From: Candidatus Avoscillospira stercorigallinarum
GTDB lineage: Bacteria > Bacillota > Clostridia > Oscillospirales > Oscillospiraceae
Assembly (NCBI GenBank): GCA_018713205.1
Contig: DVFN01000089.1
Location: 1 to 51,160 of the forward strand
Direction: 5' to 3'
Length of the DNA stretch: 51,160 bases
Position numbers and translations under genes: made by a program. A model generated the notes under the pieces. It was not told where the DNA came from. It did no database searches and saw nothing but the letters and a program-made list of their open reading frames with translations. Shown here piece after piece: positions 5,100 through 44,152 of this stretch (position 1 is the first letter of the stretch; every line of letters begins with the position of its first letter).

Positions 5100-5132
5100 G
5101 TGCGGTTGGGCGCATATACAATGCGCCCCCAG
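5100..5132. repeat. Single family A palindrome upstream of mreD
   Basis: The unit GGGCGCATATACAATGCGCCCC stands alone just upstream of mreD on the minus strand. Confidence 0.65.
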
Positions 5133-5134
5133 AC

Positions 5135-5287
5135 TGTCGAAAAACCTCGCTGAAAATGTCTGTGACAGAGCAGCGGGGGAAGTGTGAAGGGGGCAAAAAC
5201 CCCCCTTCGCGTTCAATCAACACGTATTTTTAAACTTTTTAGAAAGTTTAAAAATACGCACAGCGTGGCGAAAAGACTTTTTCGACA
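5135..5287. repeat. 153-bp inverted-repeat element with TGTCGAAAAA ends
   Basis: The element is bounded by TGTCGAAAAA (5135-5144) and its exact reverse complement TTTTTCGACA (5278-5287). Inside are a GGGGG/CCCCC hairpin (5187-5207), a perfect 16-bp stem with a 4-nt loop (5223-5258, CGTATTTTTAAACTTT arm), and a CAGCGTG/CACGCTG hairpin (5261-5294 region). It has no coding potential and looks like a miniature mobile or palindromic element. Confidence 0.6.
5223..5258. terminator. Perfect AT-rich hairpin, possible bidirectional terminator
   Basis: CGTATTTTTAAACTTT, loop TTAG, AAAGTTTAAAAATACG forms an uninterrupted 16-bp stem. There is no GC-rich core next to a T-run, so termination is only a suggestion. 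The hairpin is internal to the 153-bp element. Confidence 0.35.
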
Positions 5288-5470
5288 CGCTGCGGGGCGG
5301 ATTGCATATCCGCCCCTGCCCAGCCATCAGCAACCACCGGGGCCCGGAATATAACGCAACCGGTTCGGGCGGATATATAATCCGCCCCTACGGCACTTCG
5401 CGCATTTCTCCACTCTTTACGTTTCACTATGCACTATCTCTTCCCGCCCCTACGAAAGCATTCCAACCGA
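5288..5470. repeat. Palindromic mosaic repeat, family A
   Basis: Units GGGGCGGATTGCATATCCGCCCC and GGGCGGATATATAATCCGCCCC are followed by a partial unit ending CCCGCCCCTACG just before the rbfA ribosome binding site. No gene is visible; the N-terminal extension of the 184-residue ORF 5302..5856 is repeat translation. Confidence 0.75.
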
Positions 5471-6799: not shown

Positions 6800-6814
6800 C
6801 GCCCCAAACAACGT

Positions 6815-7070
6815 CGTAGGGGCGGCCTTCATGGCCGCCCGTGCCAGCCGCTGTGTCGGATGCACCACCGGCGATCGCACCGACCCGCGATTCGCCGTAG
6901 GGCGGCATGCCCACATGCCGCCGGAACAGGGTGCGTTTTGCTCTGGACCCCCGGTGGTTGCGGGGGCCCGGACGCGGCGGGGTGTGGGCACCCCGCCCTA
7001 CAGCGCGAAGCGCACTTTTTCACTATTCACGCTTCCCTATTTCATCCCCGCCCCTACGAAAAAATGCGGC
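6815..7070. repeat. Palindromic mosaic repeat, family A, between nrnA and truB
   Basis: Units include GGGGCGGCCTTCATGGCCGCCC, GGGCGGCATGCCCACATGCCGCC and GGCGGGGTGTGGGCACCCCGCC, separated by the conserved non-palindromic spacer containing CGGATGCACCACCGGCGATC. It ends with CCCGCCCCTACGAAAAAA before the truB ribosome binding site. There is no coding sequence in the 298-bp gap. Confidence 0.8.
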
Positions 7071-7097
7071 TTTGTCTGACACACAAAGGAGGCCCCC

Positions 7098-8939: not shown

Positions 8940-9420
8940 CTGCCTCGTAGGGGCGACTATCAGTCGCCCGAAACCGGGTTCCGATTCGCGCCGGGCCGGC
9001 AATCAACGCACCCGTTCACGGACGCGCCATGCGCGCCCCTACGACCGGTGCGGTCGCCGGTGGTGCATCCGACGCGGCGGTGCGGCACGGGCGGCCATGA
9101 AGGCCGCCCCTACAGCGGATGCAGCCATTGGAATGCGCTGCACGCGTGGGCTTGCGGGCCGATGTGGGCATCGGCCCCTACGCTGCTCGCTCGACACCTG
9201 GTAGGGGCGGCCTGTATGGCCGCCCGGAACCGGGTCGCGCTTTCCGCTGGGCCGCCAATCAATGCGCCCCTACGACCGGGGTGCGGTCGCCGGTGGTGCA
9301 TCCGACGCGGCGGTGCGGCTCGGGCGGCTGATAGCCGCCCCTACGATGGGTGGAACCATCGGGATTGCAGTGCACGCGTGGGCTTGCGGGCCGATGTGGG
9401 CATCGGCCCCTACGGGTGAT
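8940..9420. repeat. Palindromic mosaic repeat array, family A (at least eight units)
   Basis: Units alternate in orientation: GGGGCGACTATCAGTCGCCC (8950), GGACGCGCCATGCGCGCCCC (9020), GGGCGGCCATGAAGGCCGCCC (9089), GGGCCGATGTGGGCATCGGCCC (9156 and 9388), GGGGCGGCCTGTATGGCCGCCC (9204) and GGGCGGCTGATAGCCGCCC (9322). The spacer GGTGCGGTCGCCGGTGGTGC...GACGC appears at 9048-9086 and again at 9280-9319. All small ORFs here translate the repeat. No gene is visible from 8914 to 9482. Confidence 0.85.
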
Positions 9421-9435
9421 ATGTGTACGGGGCGC

Positions 9436-9465
9436 AAAAAATCCCCCGGGCGGGTGGCCCGGGGG
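9436..9465 (-). terminator. Intrinsic terminator of the C-terminal-SLH surface protein gene
   Basis: Read on the minus strand, CCCCCGGGC, loop CACCC, GCCCGGGGG is followed by ATTTTTT. It lies 17 nt beyond the stop codon of the 9483-12314 gene. Confidence 0.85.
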
Positions 9466-9482
9466 GCGATGTGCGGGAGGGA

Positions 9483-12314
9483 TTAGTAGGTCAGCACGCG
9501 GTGCAGGATCACGGCCATTTCAGCACGGGTGATGTTGCTCTTGGGCTGGATCTTGCCATTGGTGCCGATGACAACGCCGTGGCCGATCAGGTCCTTGATG
9601 GCGGCCTTGGCGTAGGAGGAGACGGAGCTGTAATCGGAGAAGCTGGAGGTGGAGGTGGAGACGGTGTAGCTCATGGAGTAGCCGACCTCATCCAGGGTCC
9701 GATAGATCAGGGTCATGGCCTCCTCGCGGGTGATGTAGGAGGTGGGGTTGTACTTGCCATTGGAGCCCTGGGCGATGCCGAGATACTTGGCCACGCCGAC
9801 GGCCTGGTAGGTCTCCTTGGAGTAGGAGGTGGTACCCTTGACCACATCGGGGAAGTTAGAGGTGACGTTGTAGTTCCCGTAATCCTCCTCCAGGAAGGCG
9901 CGGTACAGCATCAGCATAAAGTCGCCGCGGGTGATGTTGCTCTTGGGATTGTACTTGCCGTTGGAGCCGTTGGCGACCTCTTCGTAGTACAGGAAGTCCA
10001 CGGAGTCGGCAGCCCAGGAGTAGGAAGTCGCTGTCACGTCGGAGAACACGGCGGACTTGGTCTTCTGGGTTACCTTAAAGGTAATCTTGCCCTCATAGGA
10101 GTTCTTGCCATTGACATCATAGCCGGTATACTTGATGCTCACTTCGCCATAGAGGCCGGCGCGAGGCACAAAGGCAACCTTGTCCAGATCCATCTGCGTG
10201 CCGGTGGGATCGACGTAGAACTCATACTTGGTTGTCACAGGGGTGCTGTTGAGAATATTGGAGAAATTATAGAACAGCTTGCCGCTGGAAGCGGAGACAC
10301 TGGAGAACGTCAGATAGTCCAGGTCCTTTCCGGTAGCCGCCTTGTAGTTGGCCTCGATGATCTCCGTGATACCGCCGGCGCCGAAGGCCACGCCGCGGGA
10401 AGTGATGGTGGCAGCGTCGCCTTCGCCCAGGTTGATGACAATAATACCGCTGATGCCGTCGCCCTTATCATTATAGGCGGTGAAGGGCACGGTATCGGTC
10501 AGGCCGTCATAATTCTTGGTATCCACCACATAGGTAACCTGATCCAGGTCGCAGTAGTAATTGTTGTTGGTGGCGGAGTAGTTATAGTAGGCCTTATGAC
10601 TGGTGGTCACCACCTTGGAAGCGGAGGACGTGGTATAGAGAATACCATAGTAGGGCACGGAAGTGGTAATATCAAACTTCACATAGGAGAGGCTGCCGGT
10701 GTACTTGTTGGCAGACTTGTTGTCGTTCCAGAAGCTGACAAAATCCTTCTCGTCAAAGGTAACCTTGCCGTTGGAGCCCAGATCGTACTCAATATCGCCC
10801 TCACCATCGCCAACGGTGAGCTTCAGCGTACCCTCGGCGACGACATGGTCAGTCTTGGTCTTGGAGTCAGCCCAAGCAACGGTGTATTCCGCGGTCACAG
10901 TGCCGCTGCGCACGGCAGTAAAGGTCAGCGCGGAATTATTCACAGACACCCAGCCGCTGCCGCTGGAGAAGGAGCCGACATTCTTGCCCTCGATGATGTC
11001 AAACTTAATATACGTGCCGTCAGCAGCACCCAGGGCGTTCATCAAAGAGTTCCGGCTGGCGGTATTGGAGCCATTGTCCTTGTACAGGGTCTTCAGCGCG
11101 CCCACCTCGGAGAGCTTGAGCTTCCAGCTGTCCGTCGAAGCCTCGACCGTGTGGGTCTCATAAACGCCGATATACACGGTGACAGGATCAATCTTGATGT
11201 CGCTGTTATTGGCGACGGAAGCGGTCACGGTAACGGAAGCCACACCAACGCTGGAGCCGAGTACAGACACAGCGCCCTTATTGGAGGTGCTGACACTGGT
11301 GGAGGCACCGGTAACCTTGCCGGAATCAGAGGACTTATAATCGAATGTATAGTTCACCACAGCGTCGCTGCTGAGGCCGTTCACAGTGGGAACCAGCGTA
11401 ATGGAATCCAGCCGCTCGACACTGGCAGGCGCGGAAACAGAGAGAACCACACCGCCCACGGTGATTTCACTGGATGTAACAGGGTTCGTTTTCAGCTCAT
11501 ACAGATCGTTGGTCAGCGTCACGGTGGCAGTGATGGTTGCCTTGCCAGTCGCCTTGGGCGTCAGGACACCCTTATCGTCAACCGCCAGCTTAGTCGCATC
11601 GGAGCTGGTCCAGGTCACGGAAGTGGGCTCCAAGTCTTCCACTTCCGCAAAGGAGACGGACAGAGTCTTATCCTTATCCGTCAGGTTCATGGCGGCAGGC
11701 ACGCCGTCAATCTGCGGGGTGACCTTCATCTTGGTGACGGTCACCGTGATTTCATTGCTCTTAGTTTCGCCGACCTTCGCGGAAATCGTAGCCGTGCCGG
11801 TGGCGGCCTTCGCAGTGACCACGCCGGTCTCGGAAACATCCGCAACAGCAGAATCCGAGCTGCTCCAGGCGATGCCCTCGGTGGAGCTGCCGTCGGACAT
11901 GGCAGCGGTAAACGCAGCCGTCTTAGAATACTCCAGCGTATTGGCGCCGGTAATCGTCAGAGTAGGCTTGGCAGCTTCAGCAGCAACGACATGAATCTCA
12001 TGGGTGTCGCTGATTGTCTCACCATTCTCTGTAACAGAAGCGGTAACTGTAACAGTAGTGCCGGCAGTCTCACCGGTGACAGTGTATCTTGTACTGTCGG
12101 TAGATTCTTCGCCAGTGGCGCCGTCTCCGGACATGGACCACTGGACTTTTTCGGTACCGCTGTAATCTGTTGACAGCGTAATCGTTTCTTCAACCTTGAC
12201 TTGGCTTTCGCCGCTGATGTTGATTGCATCCGCCGCCAGAGCAAACGGGGCCACGCTGACCAGCAGTGCCAGAACCAGCAGCAGCGCGCCAATTCTGGTA
12301 ATGGATTTCTTCAT
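9483..12314 (-). CDS. Secreted surface protein with bacterial Ig-like domains and C-terminal SLH repeats
   Basis: This 943-residue exported protein starts with a Sec signal peptide (MKKSITRIGALLLVLALLVSVAPFALA, likely cleaved near residue 27). Several BIG2-type Ig-like modules follow over about residues 30-380, recognisable by repeated VTWTSSDATKLAVDDKG and GTATISAKVG patterns. The middle third is Ser/Thr/Gly-rich and unassigned. Three SLH repeats occupy about the last 190 residues, with signatures ITRGDFMLMLYRA, ITREEAMTLIYRT and ITRAEMAVILHRV. SLH repeats usually bind pyruvylated wall polymers, so the protein is expected to be tethered with its Ig-like stalk outward. An AGAGGTG ribosome binding site precedes the ATG. 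The ligand or partner is unknown. Confidence 0.93.
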   Translation of the reverse strand: MKKSITRIGALLLVLALLVSVAPFALAADAINISGESQVKVEETITLSTDYSGTEKVQWSMSGDGATGEESTDSTRYTVTGETAGTTVTVTASVTENGETISDTHEIHVVAAEAAKPTLTITGANTLEYSKTAAFTAAMSDGSSTEGIAWSSSDSAVADVSETGVVTAKAATGTATISAKVGETKSNEITVTVTKMKVTPQIDGVPAAMNLTDKDKTLSVSFAEVEDLEPTSVTWTSSDATKLAVDDKGVLTPKATGKATITATVTLTNDLYELKTNPVTSSEITVGGVVLSVSAPASVERLDSITLVPTVNGLSSDAVVNYTFDYKSSDSGKVTGASTSVSTSNKGAVSVLGSSVGVASVTVTASVANNSDIKIDPVTVYIGVYETHTVEASTDSWKLKLSEVGALKTLYKDNGSNTASRNSLMNALGAADGTYIKFDIIEGKNVGSFSSGSGWVSVNNSALTFTAVRSGTVTAEYTVAWADSKTKTDHVVAEGTLKLTVGDGEGDIEYDLGSNGKVTFDEKDFVSFWNDNKSANKYTGSLSYVKFDITTSVPYYGILYTTSSASKVVTTSHKAYYNYSATNNNYYCDLDQVTYVVDTKNYDGLTDTVPFTAYNDKGDGISGIIVINLGEGDAATITSRGVAFGAGGITEIIEANYKAATGKDLDYLTFSSVSASSGKLFYNFSNILNSTPVTTKYEFYVDPTGTQMDLDKVAFVPRAGLYGEVSIKYTGYDVNGKNSYEGKITFKVTQKTKSAVFSDVTATSYSWAADSVDFLYYEEVANGSNGKYNPKSNITRGDFMLMLYRAFLEEDYGNYNVTSNFPDVVKGTTSYSKETYQAVGVAKYLGIAQGSNGKYNPTSYITREEAMTLIYRTLDEVGYSMSYTVSTSTSSFSDYSSVSSYAKAAIKDLIGHGVVIGTNGKIQPKSNITRAEMAVILHRVLTY

Positions 12315-12363
12315 GTTTTTACACCTCTTTCAGTTTTTCGGTCGCAAGCGGATATGTGTTTTC

Positions 12364-12372
12364 ATTCTACCA
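12364..12372 (-). promoter_or_regulatory. Extended -10 promoter of the 9483-12314 gene
   Basis: On the minus strand TGGTAGAAT gives a TGn-extended -10 box. The -35 region is weak. The predicted transcript start near 12357 leaves a leader of about 43 nt that includes the AGAGGTG ribosome binding site. Confidence 0.5.
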
Positions 12373-12402
12373 TAAAACACATACAAGTGGAAGGCAAAAT
12401 CA

Positions 12403-12420
12403 AAGAATTCATGAATTCTT
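12403..12420. promoter_or_regulatory. Perfect 18-bp palindrome, possible operator
   Basis: AAGAATTCATGAATTCTT is fully self-complementary and lies about 30 bp upstream of the -10 box of the SLH gene, where an activator or repressor could sit. Confidence 0.4.
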
Positions 12421-12510
12421 AACGATTGATACCCTCGCAAGTTCCTAATATAAAGACGGAAAAACAGGCCAAAAGGTTCCCATTGATGCAAAATATTATA
12501 ATAATAAGGA

Positions 12511-12536
12511 GCGACCCTCCATTGCTGGAGGGCCGC
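12511..12536 (-). terminator. Intrinsic terminator of the N-terminal-SLH surface protein gene
   Basis: GCGACCCTCCA, loop TTGC, TGGAGGGCCGC forms an 11-bp stem with one mismatch. On the minus strand it is followed by the T-rich run TCCTTATTATTATAATATTTT. Confidence 0.75.
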
Positions 12537-12570
12537 TTTGGGTGTTTGCTATTTACAGGTTCCGTTAGGA

Positions 12571-15315
12571 TTAGTCCACAGGAACGATGACACCGTTCAC
12601 GACATGAGCATCGACGACGATGAAGATCTCATCGACCTGGCCCTGATCGTTGAAGAACAGCCAGTACACATTGTAGTCGTAGTACTCATTGTCGGAGCCG
12701 GGAACACCAGCAGAAGTGGTATCCTCGAAGTACTTGTTCAGATCTTCGACCTTCTCCAGCTTGGTGTAGGTATCCTTCGCGGTGTCGCCCACAACCACGA
12801 CGCAGTCATCGGCCACGATGTAGGAGTCGGTACGCTCGGCGATCAGGTTGCCGTTCTGGAACCACAGGCGAGTGCCGTCGATCTTGTCGGGGTTCACATC
12901 CTCCACAGCGGAGTAGACAGGCGTCACGCCGTCCACCAGGCCGATGACCTGCAGCTCAGCCTCGTACAGATACGGAATGCCAGCAGACAGGAGGGCGTTG
13001 TCAGTCACAGCCAGGATCGCGTCCTCGCCGTTGATGATGGCCTTGTAGGTCACATAGGCGCCGGCCTGCAGCTGATCGACGAACAGATCATCGGAGACCA
13101 GCTTCTGAGCGGTGCTGTACACGAAGGCTCTCTGAGCGGAGTGCTGATACAGAGCGTCGATGAAGACGTAGGTCAGCTGATCCACGCCGGCAACCTCTTC
13201 ATAGAAGTACTGGATGGTAGCCATCTTCGCGAAGATGCCATCGATCTCGTCATTGCCATAGGTGAAGCCGGCCAGAGCGACAGTCAGCTGATCGCGGGTG
13301 TAGACATTGTACTCGTAGGCCTTGGCGCTGTAGTTCCAGGTACGGACCATGTACTGGGTGGAAGCGGTGCCGTTGACCACAGCATTACCGGTACGGTCGT
13401 TCATGATGTCGCCGTCGGCATCCAGGTAGTAGTCGGGATCGGTGATATAGTCGGCGTAGTCGGAGCCGGCGACAGCGGGGGTGCCGGGAGTCGCGGCAAC
13501 GTCATTCTGATAGGGCCAGTAGTTATTGTTGTCGATGGAGGCGACACCGTTGCTGTCCACATAGCGGAGCAGGCGGCCTCTGTTGTAACCAGCCATGGCA
13601 GCGCCAGCGCGGTCGTTCAGGGCGTTCCACAGGTTGGCGTTGACAGCGGCGTCCTCCGTGAGCTTGCCGTCGAAGGTCACCAGATCGTTGGTGTAGGTGT
13701 AGGCGCGGTTGCCGTCGTAGCCGATGTTGCCGGGGATCTTCACGCCGGTCTGCTCGACAGCGTAGGCGTAAACATACTCGACGGAGTCGGAGTGGTTGGT
13801 CCAAGCCATGACGTAGCCGAACTCATCCAGGTACAGGTCGTACTCCTGGCCGTTGTCGGAGGAGGCGTCAACCTCGAACCGGGTCATCACGCCGGGCTGG
13901 GGAGCGTAGAAGTTGTTGAAGTTCTCAGCGTACTCGTAGGTCTCGCCGCCAACCTTGGTGGTGCTGCCGTTGCCGCCGGTGAGATCCTGCTCGGTGCGGG
14001 TGCAGGCGCCGGTCACGACGGGAGCGATCTTGGCGTCATGCAGCTGAGAGTTGCCGTTGTAGTTGCTGTCGGCGCTGCAGATCCAGTAGAGGACCACGTC
14101 GCCAACCTTGAAGCCGTAGCCGGTGTTGTCAAAAGCGGCGGCGGTGTTGTTCATCTTGAAGGTGCCCTCGTAGTTGCTGACGGAGGTAACTTCGCCGATG
14201 TAGGTGTTCTTGATGGTGATGATGACATGAGCGTCAGCGTCGTCCACATAGACATGAGTCTCAACGCCGTTGCCGGTGTGGTTCTGAACAGTAGCCAGAG
14301 TGGTGTTGTTCAGAGGGATCTCACCGTTCATATCGCGGCCATCCACATACCAGTTGAAGGTGTAGGCCTTGGAGCTGTCAACCTCTTCCTTCAGGTCGGT
14401 CTTGAGGGAAGCGGAAGCGGTGTAGCTGTAGTCAGCAGCAGTGGGATAGAACTTGTCGAACACCACGGTGCCCTTCGCATTGCGATAGACCCAGGAGAAG
14501 CCGGGGTTGCCATAGCAATCCTGGTCAGCAGTCAGGGTCAGGCCCTTGTAGATGCTGCCGAGCGGGAAGGGGCTGATGACGACGTTCTGGCGGGTGATCA
14601 CGATCCAGCCTTCGTTCTCGGCGTCGGGGATGGAGACATGGCCGCCGAAACGGTCAAAGTAGATGGTGTTGGTGATCTTGACCAGGTTCTCGGAGATGGT
14701 GCCGATGACGATGTTGGCCTGCAGGGCGTTCAGCATCATCTGAGCGGCTTCCTCACGGGTGATGGCCTTGTCGGGATCATAGTCGGCGGCGAAGCCGTTC
14801 AGCAGGCCATGATCCTTGGCATCGCGCAGGATGTTGGTCTTCCAGTTGGTTCCAACATAGCCCTGAGTAGCGGCATCGAAGCCCAGGACGCAGAGCAGCA
14901 TCTTGGCGGTCTCAATGCCGGTCACCTTGCCGTTGGGGTCAAAGGTGGTGGCGTTGCGGCCGGAGACGATACCGGTCTGGGCGCAGTAGGCGATGTAGCT
15001 GGCAGCCCAGTCGTTCTTGGCATCAGCAAAGGTGCAGGCGCTGGCATACAGGTCGCTGACGTCGTCACCAGCGTTGGAGAGAACAGCAATCATCTTCGCC
15101 ATCTCGGAACGCTTGATGGTGTTGGTGGGACGGAACGTGCCATCGGGATAACCGTCCAGGATACCGATGGCGGACAGGACATCGACGGCTTCAGCATAGT
15201 TGACCTTATCATAGTCAGAATAGTCGTCGGCGTCCTTGGCGCTGACCATGGCGACGAAGCTGAACAGAGTAGCAACGACCAGGATCAGAGCCAGAACTTT
15301 GCGAAAGTTCTTCAT
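12571..15315 (-). CDS. Secreted S-layer-type protein with N-terminal SLH repeats
   Basis: The ORF track starts at 15429, but the real start is the ATG at 15315: MKNFRKVLALILVVATLFSFVAMVSA is a clean Sec signal peptide and GGAGGAAG precedes it. The mature 914-residue product opens with SLH repeats over about residues 30-210 (AVDVLSAIGILDGYPDGTFRPTNTIKRSEMA, TFDPNGKVTGIETAKMLL, DYDPDKAITREEAAQMML). The remaining 700 residues are rich in Asp, Asn, Tyr and Val with few recognisable motifs. This architecture is common among S-layer proteins of Oscillospiraceae-type Clostridia. It has its own promoter and terminator and may be strongly expressed. Its exact array-forming role is inferred. Confidence 0.92.
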   Translation of the reverse strand: MKNFRKVLALILVVATLFSFVAMVSAKDADDYSDYDKVNYAEAVDVLSAIGILDGYPDGTFRPTNTIKRSEMAKMIAVLSNAGDDVSDLYASACTFADAKNDWAASYIAYCAQTGIVSGRNATTFDPNGKVTGIETAKMLLCVLGFDAATQGYVGTNWKTNILRDAKDHGLLNGFAADYDPDKAITREEAAQMMLNALQANIVIGTISENLVKITNTIYFDRFGGHVSIPDAENEGWIVITRQNVVISPFPLGSIYKGLTLTADQDCYGNPGFSWVYRNAKGTVVFDKFYPTAADYSYTASASLKTDLKEEVDSSKAYTFNWYVDGRDMNGEIPLNNTTLATVQNHTGNGVETHVYVDDADAHVIITIKNTYIGEVTSVSNYEGTFKMNNTAAAFDNTGYGFKVGDVVLYWICSADSNYNGNSQLHDAKIAPVVTGACTRTEQDLTGGNGSTTKVGGETYEYAENFNNFYAPQPGVMTRFEVDASSDNGQEYDLYLDEFGYVMAWTNHSDSVEYVYAYAVEQTGVKIPGNIGYDGNRAYTYTNDLVTFDGKLTEDAAVNANLWNALNDRAGAAMAGYNRGRLLRYVDSNGVASIDNNNYWPYQNDVAATPGTPAVAGSDYADYITDPDYYLDADGDIMNDRTGNAVVNGTASTQYMVRTWNYSAKAYEYNVYTRDQLTVALAGFTYGNDEIDGIFAKMATIQYFYEEVAGVDQLTYVFIDALYQHSAQRAFVYSTAQKLVSDDLFVDQLQAGAYVTYKAIINGEDAILAVTDNALLSAGIPYLYEAELQVIGLVDGVTPVYSAVEDVNPDKIDGTRLWFQNGNLIAERTDSYIVADDCVVVVGDTAKDTYTKLEKVEDLNKYFEDTTSAGVPGSDNEYYDYNVYWLFFNDQGQVDEIFIVVDAHVVNGVIVPVD

Positions 15316-15375
15316 GAGTCTTCCTCCTTTTGAATTTGATTTAGGGCCGCTGGGGTCCAAAATCATTGTACCCGT

Positions 15376-15404
15376 ATCATATCCGATGCCCCAAAGAATT
15401 GCAA
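15376..15404 (-). promoter_or_regulatory. Promoter of the N-terminal-SLH surface protein gene
   Basis: On the minus strand TTGCAA, a 17-nt spacer and TATGAT fit a sigma-A promoter, giving a leader of about 55 nt. A second -10-like TACAAT lies just downstream (15368-15373). Confidence 0.6.
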
Positions 15405-15419
15405 GGGCTTGGCGGCTTT

Positions 15420-15439
15420 TGTTACACAACTGTTACACA
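15420..15439 (-). promoter_or_regulatory. Direct repeat TGTGTAACA x2 upstream of the S-layer promoter
   Basis: Two copies of TGTGTAACA (minus strand) are spaced 11 bp start to start, about one helical turn, beginning 15 bp upstream of the -35 box. This layout suits an activator-binding site; no protein can be named. Confidence 0.4.
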
Positions 15440-15484
15440 GCATGGTCATGCAGAACCCGCTCCATTTTCCGCCAGCCCCCAACG

Positions 15485-16140
15485 TTCCCGCGTAGGGGCC
15501 GATGCCCACATCGGCCCGCAAGCTCCCGTGTGCAGCGCATTTCAATGGCTGCATTCGCTGTAGGGGCGGCCTGTATGGCCGCCCGTGCCGCACCGCCCCG
15601 TCGGATGCACCTCCGGCGACCGCACCCCGGTCGTAGGGGCGCATTGATTGGCAGCCCGGTGGGAAGCACGACCCGGTTCCGGGCGGCCATACAGGCCGCC
15701 CCTACGGATGCACCGCCGATTCGGTTCGTAGGGCGGGGTGCCCACACCCCGCCGAACCAGGCCGCCGGGATTGCCGGGCTAGCAAGTATCGCAGCAGCCG
15801 CCGGTCCTCTCGTAGGGGCGGGCTTCATGCCCGCCCGTGCCGCACCGCCGGGAGCAACAGGCCCTCGGTCATCGCGGCCCGGTCATCGCGGCATGTGGGC
15901 ATGCCGCCCTACGGCGTTCGGCGAAGTGCGGCAGAAACCAGAGGGCGTTCTCGGGCGGATATAAAATCCGCCCCTACGGCAGGGACAGGGGACGGTGCGG
16001 CCGGCGGGCTGCCTTGCACGCGGAGGGCTGACGGACGCGCCATGTGCGCCCCTACGGCTTTCGGCGGGGGTGCGGTGGGGGCCGGGGGCTTGTTCGGGCG
16101 GCCATACAGGCCGCCCCTACGGGTGCGCACGCTGGCCTAT
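15485..16140. repeat. Largest palindromic mosaic repeat array, family A
   Basis: About ten units fill the gap before the aconitase-family gene, including GGGGCCGATGCCCACATCGGCCC (15495), GGGGCGGCCTGTATGGCCGCCC (15563), GGGCGGCCATACAGGCCGCCC (15684 and 16099), GGGCGGGGTGCCCACACCCCGCC (15731), GGGGCGGGCTTCATGCCCGCCC (15814), GCATGTGGGCATGCCGCCC (15892) and GGGCGGATATAAAATCCGCCC (15954). The conserved spacer recurs in reverse at about 15588-15630. Every ORF called inside translates repeat. No gene is visible from 15316 to 16233. Confidence 0.85.
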
Positions 16141-18499: not shown

Positions 18500-18575
18500 C
18501 GGGAGGGCATAAAGCCCTCCCCTACGCCACGCACTGGGATTTTATCGTAGGGGCGGGGTTTATCCCCGCCCGTCC
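18500..18575. repeat. Two family A palindromes between the aconitase-family and icd genes
   Basis: GGGAGGGCATAAAGCCCTCCCC and GGGGCGGGGTTTATCCCCGCCC fill the 113-bp gap. They may form hairpins in a shared transcript. Confidence 0.75.
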
Positions 18576-21257: not shown

Positions 21258-21570
21258 TTGGTAGGGGCGGCCTGTATGGCCGCCCGCAACCGGGTCCCAC
21301 TTCCCGCCTGGGCACGATGGCCCCGCCTTCGGTCTTCTCGTAGGGGCCGATGCCCACATCGGCCCGCCCGCTGTGGGCGTAGGGCGGCATGCCCACATGC
21401 CGCCATGACCGGGTGCATGGACCGCCGGTCCAGCATATATCGCACCCGGCTCCGGACGCGCGATGCGCGCCCCTACGACGGTTGCGTTCGGCGATGGTGC
21501 ATCCGACACGGCGGCACGGGCGGCCATACAGGCCGCCCCTACGGCCCCGCCTCCGGTTTTCTCGTAGGGA
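21258..21570. repeat. Palindromic mosaic repeat array, family A
   Basis: Units include GGGGCGGCCTGTATGGCCGCCC, GGGGCCGATGCCCACATCGGCCC, GGGCGGCATGCCCACATGCCGCC, GGACGCGCGATGCGCGCCCC and GGGCGGCCATACAGGCCGCCC, with the conserved GGTGCATCCGACACGGCGG spacer near 21495. No gene is visible in the convergent gap 21227-21660. Confidence 0.8.
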
Positions 21571-23194: not shown

Positions 23195-23425
23195 CTGTAG
23201 GGGCGGCCTAAATGGCCGCCCGGAACCCGGTGCGTCATGCACCGGGCCCCTGTGGTTGCCGGGGACTGGCAGGGCGCATATTGAATGCGCCCCTACACGC
23301 GCAGCGCCAATTCCACCGCACCTGTAGGGGCGGATTATATATCCGCCCGTGGCAGTGGCGATACCCGCAAGGCCTCCGCAAAACGCAGCCCGGCACGGGC
23401 GGCCATACAGGCCGCCCCTACGGTG
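23195..23425. repeat. Palindromic mosaic repeat, family A, between purL and guaB
   Basis: Units GGGGCGGCCTAAATGGCCGCCC, GGGCGCATATTGAATGCGCCCC, GGGGCGGATTATATATCCGCCC and GGGCGGCCATACAGGCCGCCCC occupy the 275-bp gap. No coding sequence is visible. Confidence 0.8.
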
Positions 23426-28439: not shown

Positions 28440-28610
28440 CAGCGCACCTGTAGGGGCGGATTATATATCCGCCCGAACCGGTTTCGTTCGGCGAAAGACC
28501 TGCGGGAATCGCAACTGCCTGCGGGCGCATATACAATGCGCCCCTACGGCAAAGCCAGGCGCGTGGTTGGCACGGGCGGCCATACAGGCCGCCCCTACGG
28601 CAAATCCGGG
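28440..28610. repeat. Palindromic mosaic repeat, family A, between purN and purD
   Basis: Units GGGGCGGATTATATATCCGCCC, GGGCGCATATACAATGCGCCCC and GGGCGGCCATACAGGCCGCCCC occupy the gap. No ORF or purH remnant is seen. Confidence 0.8.
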
Positions 28611-32472: not shown

Positions 32473-32503
32473 GTAGGGGCGGCCTTTATGGCCGCCCGTA
32501 GGG
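32473..32503. repeat. Single family A palindrome in the purC leader
   Basis: GTAGGGGCGGCCTTTATGGCCGCCCG lies between the large palindrome and the purC ribosome binding site. Confidence 0.7.
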
Positions 32504-36081: not shown

Positions 36082-36400
36082 GGGCCCTATCTCCTCAAGG
36101 AGAGGCTTTGGGGCCCGGTGCCTGAGAGGGCAGGCTCCCCTTGAGGGGAGCTGTCAGCCGAAGGCTGACTGAGAGGTGTTACCGCACCAATGGCTTGCCG
36201 CAGGGTTTCGGCGTGTGCAGAAGGCGCTTGCGCGCCGCCGCCGCTATGCGGCGGCACACCTCTCCGTCACGGCTTCGCCGTGCCACCTCCCCTCAAGGGG
36301 AGGCTTTGGGGTGCGGCATGTGCAGAGGACACGCCTCTCCGTCACGCTGCGCGTGCCCCCCAGATTGCCGCTTGCCTTTCCGGCCCGCGCTGTAGTCTGC
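36082..36400. repeat. Composite intergenic repeat, family B, before dltA
   Basis: The order is CTCCTCAAGGAGAGG, GGCTCCCCTTGAGGGGAGC, TGTCAGCCGAAGGCTGACTGAGAGG, the GGTGTTACCGCACC core, a GCC-rich hairpin, CACGGCTTCGCCGTG and CCTCCCCTCAAGGGGAGG. It is inverted relative to the block at 1-530. The tracked N-terminal extension of the dltA ORF (36176-36454) translates this element. No separate gene is seen. Confidence 0.8.
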
Positions 36401-36454: not shown

Positions 36455-37969
36455 ATGTTTATTCTGGAACAACTCCGCCACTATGCATCCACCGGCCGCG
36501 TGGCCTTCCGCTACGGGGCCGAAACCGTGACCTATGCCCAGCTGGACGCCCGGTCCGACGCCTTTGCGGCCTGGCTGCTGGAGACCCTGGGCGACGACCG
36601 GACGCCGGTGGTCCTCTACGGCCACAAGGAGCTGAGCCTCCCGGCCTGTATGTTCGGCTGCATCAAGGCCGGCCGGGCCTATGTGCCCGTGGACACCACC
36701 TTCCCCGCCGACCGGGTGGCCCGGATTCTCGAACAGGTCCAGCCGAAGGTGCTGGTGGATCTGCGGGGGCTGGGCCTTGCCGCCCCCGTGGCGCTGGACG
36801 GCGCGGCCTTGGACGCCATTCTCCGGCGGCCCGCCGCGCCCACCCCCGAGACCTGGGTGAAGCCCGGGGACGTGGTCTATATGCTCTTCACCTCCGGCTC
36901 CACCGGCCAGCCCAAGGGCGTGCAGATCACGGCCGGGAACATCGCGGCCTTCCGGGAGGGGGTCGCGCCCCTGCTGGATTTGGACTTGGACGGCGGCGTC
37001 TTCCTCAATGAAATCTCCTATTCCTTCGACGTGTCGGTCTGCGCCCTCTACTACGCCTTGAGCCGGGGCATGACCCTCTACACCGTGGACAAGGACACCC
37101 TCAACCAGCCCAAGGCCCTCTTTGCGGCCCTGGCCGAGTCGGGCGTGGACCTGTGGGTCTCCACGCCGTCCCTCGGCGAAATCTGCTGCCAGTCGCCCAA
37201 GTTCGACCAAGCCCTGCTGCCCAAGGCCCGGAAGTTTATCTTCTGCGGCGAAGTGATGACGAAGAAGCTGGGCCTGCAAATGCTGGACCGCTTCCCCGGC
37301 GCGAAGATCTACAACGCCTACGGCCCCACCGAGACCACGGTGCTGGTGACGGCGGCGGAGATCACCCGGGAGCTCTGCGACCGGGGGCCGTCCCTGCCCA
37401 TCGGCTACGGCTTTTCCAATCTGGAGTGCCGGATTCAGGACCCGGAGACCGGCGCGATCCTCCCCGACGGCCAGGCCGGGGAGCTGGTGATTCTCGGCGA
37501 CTGCGTCAGCCCCGGCTACTTCCGGCGGCCGGACCTGACGGAAAAGTCCTTCTTCACCGAGGGGACCCGCCGGGGCTACCGCACCGGCGACCTCTGCGCC
37601 AGCCATCACGGCTCCATCGACTACTTCGGCCGCCTGGACGGGCAGGTGAAGCTCAACGGCTTCCGGGTGGAGCTGGAGGACGTGGAGGAAAATCTCCTGA
37701 AGGTCCCCAACATCGCCCGGGCCGCGGTGTTGCCGGAGACCCGGGACGGCACGGTCCAGTCTCTGACGGCCTTTGTGCTGCTGGAGGCCCCCGACGGCCT
37801 CTCCAGCCTCCAGCGGGCCCGGCAGATCAAGACCGCCCTGGGGCAGCTGCTGCCCAGCTACATGGTGCCCCGGAAGATCGTGGCCGTGGACCGCTTCCCC
37901 CTGAATACCAACGGCAAGATCGATAAAAAGGCATTGGCCGCCGGGCTCGGGGAGGGCGCGACGCCATGA
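36455..37969 (+). CDS. dltA: D-alanine-poly(phosphoribitol) ligase / D-alanine activating enzyme DltA
   Basis: DltA adenylates D-alanine and loads it onto the DltC carrier, the cytoplasmic step of teichoic acid D-alanylation. The 504-residue protein is an ANL-family enzyme with MLFTSGSTGQPKGVQ (phosphate-binding loop), NAYGPTETTV, YRTGDL and the C-terminal NTNGKIDKKAL with the catalytic Lys. The start at 36455 follows AAGGGAG; the tracked 36176 start runs through repeat and is rejected. The 4-nt overlap with dltB (ATGA) and the order dltA-B-C-D confirm the assignment. Confidence 0.97.
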   Translation: MFILEQLRHYASTGRVAFRYGAETVTYAQLDARSDAFAAWLLETLGDDRTPVVLYGHKELSLPACMFGCIKAGRAYVPVDTTFPADRVARILEQVQPKVLVDLRGLGLAAPVALDGAALDAILRRPAAPTPETWVKPGDVVYMLFTSGSTGQPKGVQITAGNIAAFREGVAPLLDLDLDGGVFLNEISYSFDVSVCALYYALSRGMTLYTVDKDTLNQPKALFAALAESGVDLWVSTPSLGEICCQSPKFDQALLPKARKFIFCGEVMTKKLGLQMLDRFPGAKIYNAYGPTETTVLVTAAEITRELCDRGPSLPIGYGFSNLECRIQDPETGAILPDGQAGELVILGDCVSPGYFRRPDLTEKSFFTEGTRRGYRTGDLCASHHGSIDYFGRLDGQVKLNGFRVELEDVEENLLKVPNIARAAVLPETRDGTVQSLTAFVLLEAPDGLSSLQRARQIKTALGQLLPSYMVPRKIVAVDRFPLNTNGKIDKKALAAGLGEGATP

Positions 37970-43757: not shown

Positions 43758-43837
43758 ATGGATATACAGAGACGAAACTGAGAGCGGTTGCCGCGCCGAA
43801 GGTTCGCTACAGATCTCCAACGGGTGCAAGGGCGCGT

Positions 43838-44095
43838 CGCCTGAGAGGGAAGGCTCCCCTTGAGGGGAGCTGTCAGCCGAAGGCTGACTGAGAGGTGTTA
43901 CCGCACCGAAGGTTTGCTGCAGGGTTTCGGCCTGTGCAGAGGGCGCTTGCGCGCCGCCGCCCTTACGGGCGGCACACCTCTCCGTCACGCCCTTTGGGCG
44001 CACCACCTCTCCTCAAGGAGAGGCTTTGGGGTGCATCGCCTGAGAGGTGTTGCCGCACCGATGGCTTCCCGCAGAGTTTCGGCGTATGCAGAAGG
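43838..44095. repeat. Composite intergenic repeat, family B, before the algI-like gene
   Basis: Nearly the same module order as 36082-36400: GGCTCCCCTTGAGGGGAGC, TGTCAGCCGAAGGCTGACTG, GGTGTTACCGCACC, a GCC-rich hairpin, CCACCTCTCCTCAAGGAGAGG and a partial second copy. The 395-bp gap 43758-44152 holds nothing else recognisable. Confidence 0.8.
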
Positions 44096-44152
44096 TGCGC
44101 CCCATGAATCTCCTCTATCAAGCATTCCCAATCCACGAAAGGAGCTTTGCCC

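Follow-up and report, generated by a model that had tools for sequence, protein, structure and literature searches.

GTAG-tagged REPs (Di Nocera et al., 2013; PMC3733652) carry an unpaired GTAG foot on a 6-13 bp stem with a short loop, fall into sub-families with alternative complementary stem residues, form head-head (HH) and tail-tail (TT) dimers, are mostly intergenic, can supply a stop codon from the TAG of the tag, and flank their RAYT gene with matching repeats. The REPtrons of TnpAREP subclass 2.4 (RAYT group 4; Quentin et al., 2018; PMC6006769) combine HUH, WQ and YIxNNP motifs with long canonical REPs and have in-frame REPs within the gene. In the group 3 REPtron Sm of S. maltophilia (PMC8266576), GTAG directly precedes an 8-bp perfect palindrome with a 3-nt loop, and the REP/BIME elements of E. 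coli (TnpAREP group 2) share GTAG, alternating orientation, intergenic mosaics and a Y1-HUH transposase. The units described here have all of these features, the Sm architecture being that of the 3-nt loop class, the in-frame REPs being found in relatives of the resident gene and the Y1-HUH fold being that of a model of one relative. They differ from the REPs of the 2013 survey in having three loop classes in one array and a very regular 21-nt TT spacer, and in their host lineage; the main text of the survey makes no mention of Clostridia, Firmicutes, Oscillibacter, Faecalibacterium or Ruminococcus. E. coli REPs require a stem bulge, whereas the stems here are perfect; REPtron Sm belongs to another RAYT group, and its function was demonstrated in vitro, whereas here we infer it. 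This is a known kind of bacterial repeat in a new gut-bacterial host lineage. The range of GTAG REPs and subclass 2.4 RAYTs thereby grows to include a lineage of gut Clostridia that the surveys consulted do not name and in which the units are plentiful, at ~0.7 per kb across the 710 kb sampled.

The window, the whole stretch of 51,160 nucleotides analysed, lies on contig C28 of a 2.19-Mb MAG that is 88.6% complete. It contains 38 units in 10 blocks, every block lying inside 2.39-32.5 kb. Each unit consists of a 5' GTAG tag and an 8-bp stem, almost always perfect and within the range of described GTAG REPs, whose outer half is GGGC/GCCC, closed by a loop of one of three classes: TNNAT (5 nt), GCCCAC (6 nt) or 3 nt such as ATC. 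Sites with GTAGGG and a hairpin number 37 in the window, compared with 0-2 in 20 Markov shuffles, so the mosaics of palindromic units reported by the first-pass annotation are real, and its estimate of at least ten blocks in 51 kb agrees with our count. The common frame that it proposed stands, more exactly as GTAG followed by the 8-bp stem with three loop types, and the stem variants that it listed (GGCC, GATG, GGAT, GCAT and GACT) are all present. Its statement that nearly every operon gap is occupied is true of only two thirds of the window, where units occur in 10 of the 12 gaps that measure 30 bp or more (2.39-32.5 kb), and fails for 34.4-51.2 kb, which has no units except one chance coding match at 37955. 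The span 8940-16140 holds two blocks, at 8947-9413 and 15492-16120, and the ~6 kb separating them consist of two S-layer-type (SLH) genes without units. The units are as follows, with stem and loop separated by a slash.

Block 1, LepA/PBP gap, 2392-2489, 3 units
2392-2416, minus: GGGCGGCC/TTTAT, tail-tail with 2438-2462, 21-nt spacer
2438-2462, plus: GGGCGGGG/TTTAT
2465-2489, minus: GGGTCGAT/CTCCG
5108-5129, minus: degenerate unit, tag not intact, GGGCGCATATACAATGCGCCCC
Block 2, single unit
5367-5391, minus: GGGCGGAT/TATAT
Block 3, DHH/TruB gap, 6816-7001, 3 units
6816-6840, plus: GGGCGGCC/TTCAT
6897-6922, plus: GGCGGCAT/GCCCAC
6976-7001, minus: GGCGGGGT/GCCCAC
Block 4, convergent gap RibF/SLH, 8947-9413, 7 units
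8947-8969, plus: GGGCGACT/ATC
9020-9042, minus: GGGCGCGC/ATG
9089-9113, minus: GGGCGGCC/TTCAT
9156-9181, minus: GGGCCGAT/GCCCAC
9201-9225, plus: GGGCGGCC/TGTAT
About 9251-9273, minus: decayed unit
9322-9344, minus: GGGCGGCT/ATC
9388-9413, minus: GGGCCGAT/GCCCAC
Block 5, divergent gap SLH/aconitase, 15492-16120, 9 units
15492-15517, plus: GGGCCGAT/GCCCAC
15560-15584, plus: GGGCGGCC/TGTAT
15633, plus: decayed unit
15681-15705, minus: GGGCGGCC/TGTAT
15728-15753, plus: GGCGGGGT/GCCCAC
15812-15836, plus: GGGCGGGC/TTCAT
15887-15912, minus: GGCGGCAT/GCCCAC
15953-15977, minus: GGGCGGAT/TTTAT
16033-16055, minus: GGGCGCAC/ATG
16096-16120, minus: GGGCGGCC/TGTAT
Block 6, aconitase/isocitrate dehydrogenase gap, 18501-18571, tail-tail pair, 21-nt spacer
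18501-18525, minus: GGGAGGGC/TTTAT
18547-18571, plus: GGGCGGGG/TTTAT
Block 7, convergent gap, 21261-21542, 5 units
21261-21285, plus: GGGCGGCC/TGTAT
21340-21365, plus: GGGCCGAT/GCCCAC
21379-21404, plus: GGCGGCAT/GCCCAC
21454-21476, minus: GGGCGCGC/ATC
21518-21542, minus: GGGCGGCC/TGTAT
Block 8, IMPDH/purL gap, 23197-23421, 4 units
23197-23221, plus: GGGCGGCC/TAAAT
23272-23296, minus: GGGCGCAT/TCAAT
23324-23348, plus: GGGCGGAT/TATAT
23397-23421, minus: GGGCGGCC/TGTAT
Block 9, purD/purN gap, 28450-28598, 3 units
28450-28474, plus: GGGCGGAT/TATAT
28523-28547, minus: GGGCGCAT/TGTAT
28574-28598, minus: GGGCGGCC/TGTAT
Block 10, upstream of purC, single unit
32473-32497, plus: GGGCGGCC/TTTAT

The PBP gene stops at a TAG (2486-2489) that belongs to the GTAG of the REP at 2465-2489. 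Two repeats of other kinds were also seen in the window. One of ~160 bp, without a GTAG hairpin, occupies 5131-5292 and matches dozens of contigs in the sister genomes G097, G166, G219 and G260 at 73-88% identity. The other is a direct repeat (CTGAGAGGTGTTACCGCACC...) in the REP-free part, with three copies of ~90% identity at 36111-36242, 43830-43961 and 44040-44098.

Extracting the units genome-wide, a check that the first-pass annotation had proposed, gave 645 pattern sites compared with 79 for the reversed control pattern, while a looser pattern matched mostly background and was discarded. The part of the genome read as stretches (710 kb) holds 517 units, some of them one-mismatch chance hairpins, or 0.73 per kb, which is an overestimate because the C2-C22 stretches were picked around known units. 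The commonest stem, GGGCGGCC, accounts for 100 of the 517. The high copy number, intergenic location and inverted dimers are those of GTAG REPs, and the dimers follow a strict grammar. TT spacers (tags facing) are exactly 21 nt in 66 of 101 pairs, their length being kept more than their sequence; HH spacers are 48-52 nt in 72 of 106 pairs and have in common the motifs ACCGGGT (32 of 81, compared with 1 in shuffled spacers) and GGTGGTT; tandem pairs are mostly 40-46 or 53-58 nt apart. HH dimers, which are REPIN-like and ~100 bp long, are chained via the 21-nt TT spacers into BIME-like mosaics. A pyrimidine (C or T) stands directly 5' of GTAG in 477 of 487 sites, tighter than the remaining flank, and is possibly part of the cleavage site.

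We next examined whether the two arms of the stem vary together. Sites were chosen by tag, loop and outer bases, the inner pairs being left free with pairing not required, and in the control the 3' arms were dealt out anew among the sites. In the class with the T..AT loop (class 5), 265 of 275 sites are wholly Watson-Crick at the six free pairs, compared with a mean of 70.7 and a maximum of 95 after shuffling, and such stems lack the bulge of the E. coli BIME (REPtron group 2). The class with the GCCC.C loop (class 6) has 95 of 112 sites wholly paired (32.4 shuffled) and the 3-nt class (class 3) has 46 of 73 (16 shuffled); the rows are related, and all these counts are therefore not counts of independent events. 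In an alignment of 32 distinct class-5 units the covariation score is 0.391, compared with 0.101 after shuffling and no more than 0.072 when the partners are slid, and 4 of the 8 stem pairs show changes on both sides. The results support the claim of the first-pass annotation that both arms change together, hairpin form being kept rather than stem sequence. A further 21 sites of the 3-nt class have one constant G.T pair, the third of the stem (GGGCGCGC/GCGCGTCC; for example 9020-9042 and 21454-21476), and because this pair is shared the GGGCGCGC class may be strand-specific.

Paired changes of this kind could also arise by mutation alone, one arm being copied from the other by quasi-palindrome correction or template switching, so that hairpin recognition would be unneeded. 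Near-perfect palindromes are hot spots for template-switch copying, one-armed intermediates are rare in class 5 (8 of 275) and stems differ by blocks of pairs, all of which would suit arm copying; what it leaves unexplained are the kept tag, the T..AT loop, the exact spacers and the matching RAYT. As the whole account we consider arm copying possible, if on the unlikely side. Hairpin-templated copying from arm to arm could nevertheless contribute to the paired double changes, and it may supplement, not replace, dispersal driven by a RAYT.

A search for a RAYT-type transposase, also proposed by the first-pass annotation, found such a gene flanked by matching hairpins. The Y1_Tnp profile detects two genes in the MAG. 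One (L002; G000:C89:2-370) was rejected as a RAYT, being a truncated IS200 TnpA fragment at a contig end. The other, the sole RAYT/TnpAREP gene found in the MAG, encodes 161 aa and lies between gyrB and gyrA. It matches NF047646 (REP-associated tyrosine transposase) with E=7.5e-20, below the model's curated cut-off of 80 bits, and a PDB sequence search with it as query gave no match. Its motifs MPNHVHLL (NHVH), FWQRSFYDH (WQ) and YIVNNP are the NH[IFV]H, WQ and YIxNNP of TnpAREP subclass 2.4, and canonical long REPs lie beside the gene, as in that subclass. The flanks (L052) are 101-bp HH dimers (4157/4257 and 4806/4906) with near-identical spacers; the flanking hairpin has the commonest stem, GTAG-GGGCGGCC-TATAT-GGCCGCCC, and the RAYT gene terminates at the TAG within the tag of one flanking REP. 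This locus with its flanking dimers is a REPtron.

Only the TNNAT class, with six stems, is tied to the resident RAYT; a RAYT for the 6-nt and 3-nt classes was not found in this 88.6% complete genome. By their stems and loops, these two classes look like REPs at RAYT lineages of other genera; probably they are orphaned here, or else their RAYT lies in the roughly one tenth of the genome that the assembly lacks. With three loop classes coexisting, the variation is not the drift of one family, and the single family A of the first-pass annotation needs dividing; its interpretation that hairpin form is kept is supported, with the proviso that the units are a mixture of several REP families. Taken further, all stem types might be several old and unrelated REP families, each with its own RAYT and without compensatory evolution inside a family. 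In favour of this, the stems and loops of the 6-nt and 3-nt classes recur at RAYTs of other lineages (e.g., L073, L154, L167 and L188). Against it, the six stems of the TNNAT class have the same loop, tag and frame, and sister RAYTs of one same-genus clade (99% SH-aLRT) mix stems and loops, with one stem on different loops (L069/L076) and one loop on different stems (L069/L064). For the stem types as a whole, an origin in unrelated families is doubtful.

We also compared 167 related RAYT ORFs, 87 from loci of the family and 80 from named genomes, mostly Clostridia. GTAG hairpins lie within the reading frame in 97 of the 167, and 68 of the 167 have a plus-then-minus pair in frame, at about codon 39 and about codon 95, with tags outward. 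The two hairpins have an identical 7-bp stem in 50 of these 68, compared with 4.6 after shuffling, with 24 distinct stems; the hairpins were detected by pairing within each, and a match between the two was not a criterion. Arm copying leaves a common stem of two separate hairpins per gene unexplained. A model of one relative (L210, Gemmiger formicilis; pLDDT 83.5) matches TnpAREP 4er8 (E=1.2e-6) and the TnpA of IS608/ISDra2, and the REP-coded peptides sit in low-confidence loops of the model. REPs inside RAYT genes are an extension of a published feature and not a discovery, because they were described for subclass 2.4 (PMC6006769); there the insertions are generally between HUH and Tyr, whereas in the relatives here they occupy two fixed loops flanking HUH. 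Internal REPs predominate in subclass 2.4 and are not required; the resident, G097 and G260 RAYTs have no REPs in frame within the gene, their REPs lying outside it. In a tree with few columns and many open forks, these three form one clade (99% SH-aLRT), which adjoins RAYTs with internal REPs. The dozens of stems and ~160 RAYTs are a natural set for testing hairpin recognition by a single-strand transposase.

In all likelihood, the units are GTAG-tagged REPs dispersed as non-autonomous single-strand elements by a Y1-HUH transposase of the subclass 2.4 RAYT/TnpAREP type, and the cognate transposase very probably spreads the hairpins; that it binds, cleaves and transposes them, and in what order this happens, we infer. 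On single-stranded DNA, for instance a lagging-strand template, the arms would fold, and the RAYT would bind the GTAG tag, hairpin and loop, cut beside the hairpin and join the element elsewhere. It would read the tag, the loop and the shape of the hairpin, not the inner stem letters, and because the inner stem would be read as shape, stem mutations would outlast dispersal only with a matching partner arm. The stem alleles GGCC, GGAT, GCAT, GGGC, GGGG and AGGGC, with their common tag, frame and TNNAT loop, would result, and the 6-nt and 3-nt classes would be separate REP families. In published assays of two other RAYTs whose REPs have perfect stems, exchanging stem letters had mild effects, whereas cleavage was reduced or lost when a pair was mismatched, the tag was altered or a key base of the loop was changed (PMC8266576). 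By analogy, the selection seen in those assays is that which would be needed for a fixed tag and loop with a free but paired stem. Among the points against dispersal by the resident RAYT are that REPs inside the gene, usual among its relatives, are missing from it, and that only one of the three loop classes is tied to it.

A more speculative and rather unlikely extension is that in these gut Clostridia the inner stem is a barcode that drifts freely but stays pair-locked, its RAYT reading shape. With matched hairpins inside or beside the RAYT gene, the four hairpin arms and the protein lineage would evolve together, and identical neighbours would be selected against. If true, selection against identical neighbours would explain the heterodimer preference left unexplained in 2013. 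TT homodimers number 9 against 15.6 expected (P 0.017), and HH homodimers 8 against 10.7; homodimer avoidance was rejected as a driver of stem change, being weak for TT and absent for HH. A deficit among HT pairs disappears with loop class controlled (2 vs 1.9).

We next compared the gaps with those of sister genomes. Block 3 (6803-7085) is wholly absent in G166 and G219; in G166 the DHH stop codon runs into the TruB ribosome-binding site, and the gap of G219 is just as short. Block 6 (the 18.5 kb pair) is absent in G166 and G297, and block 8 (23.2-23.4 kb) has zero units in G219 and G260 and is represented in G297 by a single different unit, with a 3-nt loop. In the orthologous gaps examined, with one genome per species, units are present, absent or replaced, not point-mutated. 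The gaps have thus been filled, emptied or refilled inside the genus, and the empty sites show turnover of the mosaics from one sister species to another and their capacity to push closely packed genes apart. The same empty gaps bear on a role in RNA, by which the hairpins would be kept as terminators or for mRNA 3'-end protection and the link to the RAYT would be incidental. The position of the units in intergenic gaps, in some cases directly at a stop codon (2489), and the G.U-compatible pairs of the GGGCGCGC class speak for such a role. Yet the hairpins are not intrinsic terminators, because no T-run follows them (position +1 is G in 388 of 487); an Rfam scan at gathering thresholds matched the start of the 16S alone and none of the units; the largest block lies in a divergent gap (15.3-16.2 kb); and the gaps are empty in sister species. 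We regard an RNA role as quite improbable.

Dispersal by a RAYT is also consistent with the distribution of the repeats in the family. Among 301 genomes, 15 of the 18 REP-rich ones have a RAYT, compared with 95 of the 283 others (Fisher P = 3.9e-5), the genomes being phylogenetically non-independent and the pattern detecting GGG-type stems only. The three REP-rich genomes with no RAYT match, which count against such dispersal, are G006, G031 and G118. G006, from another genus of the family, has 2496 matches to GTAGG-N18-23-CC compared with 33 for the control, an even denser repeat and possibly one of a different kind.
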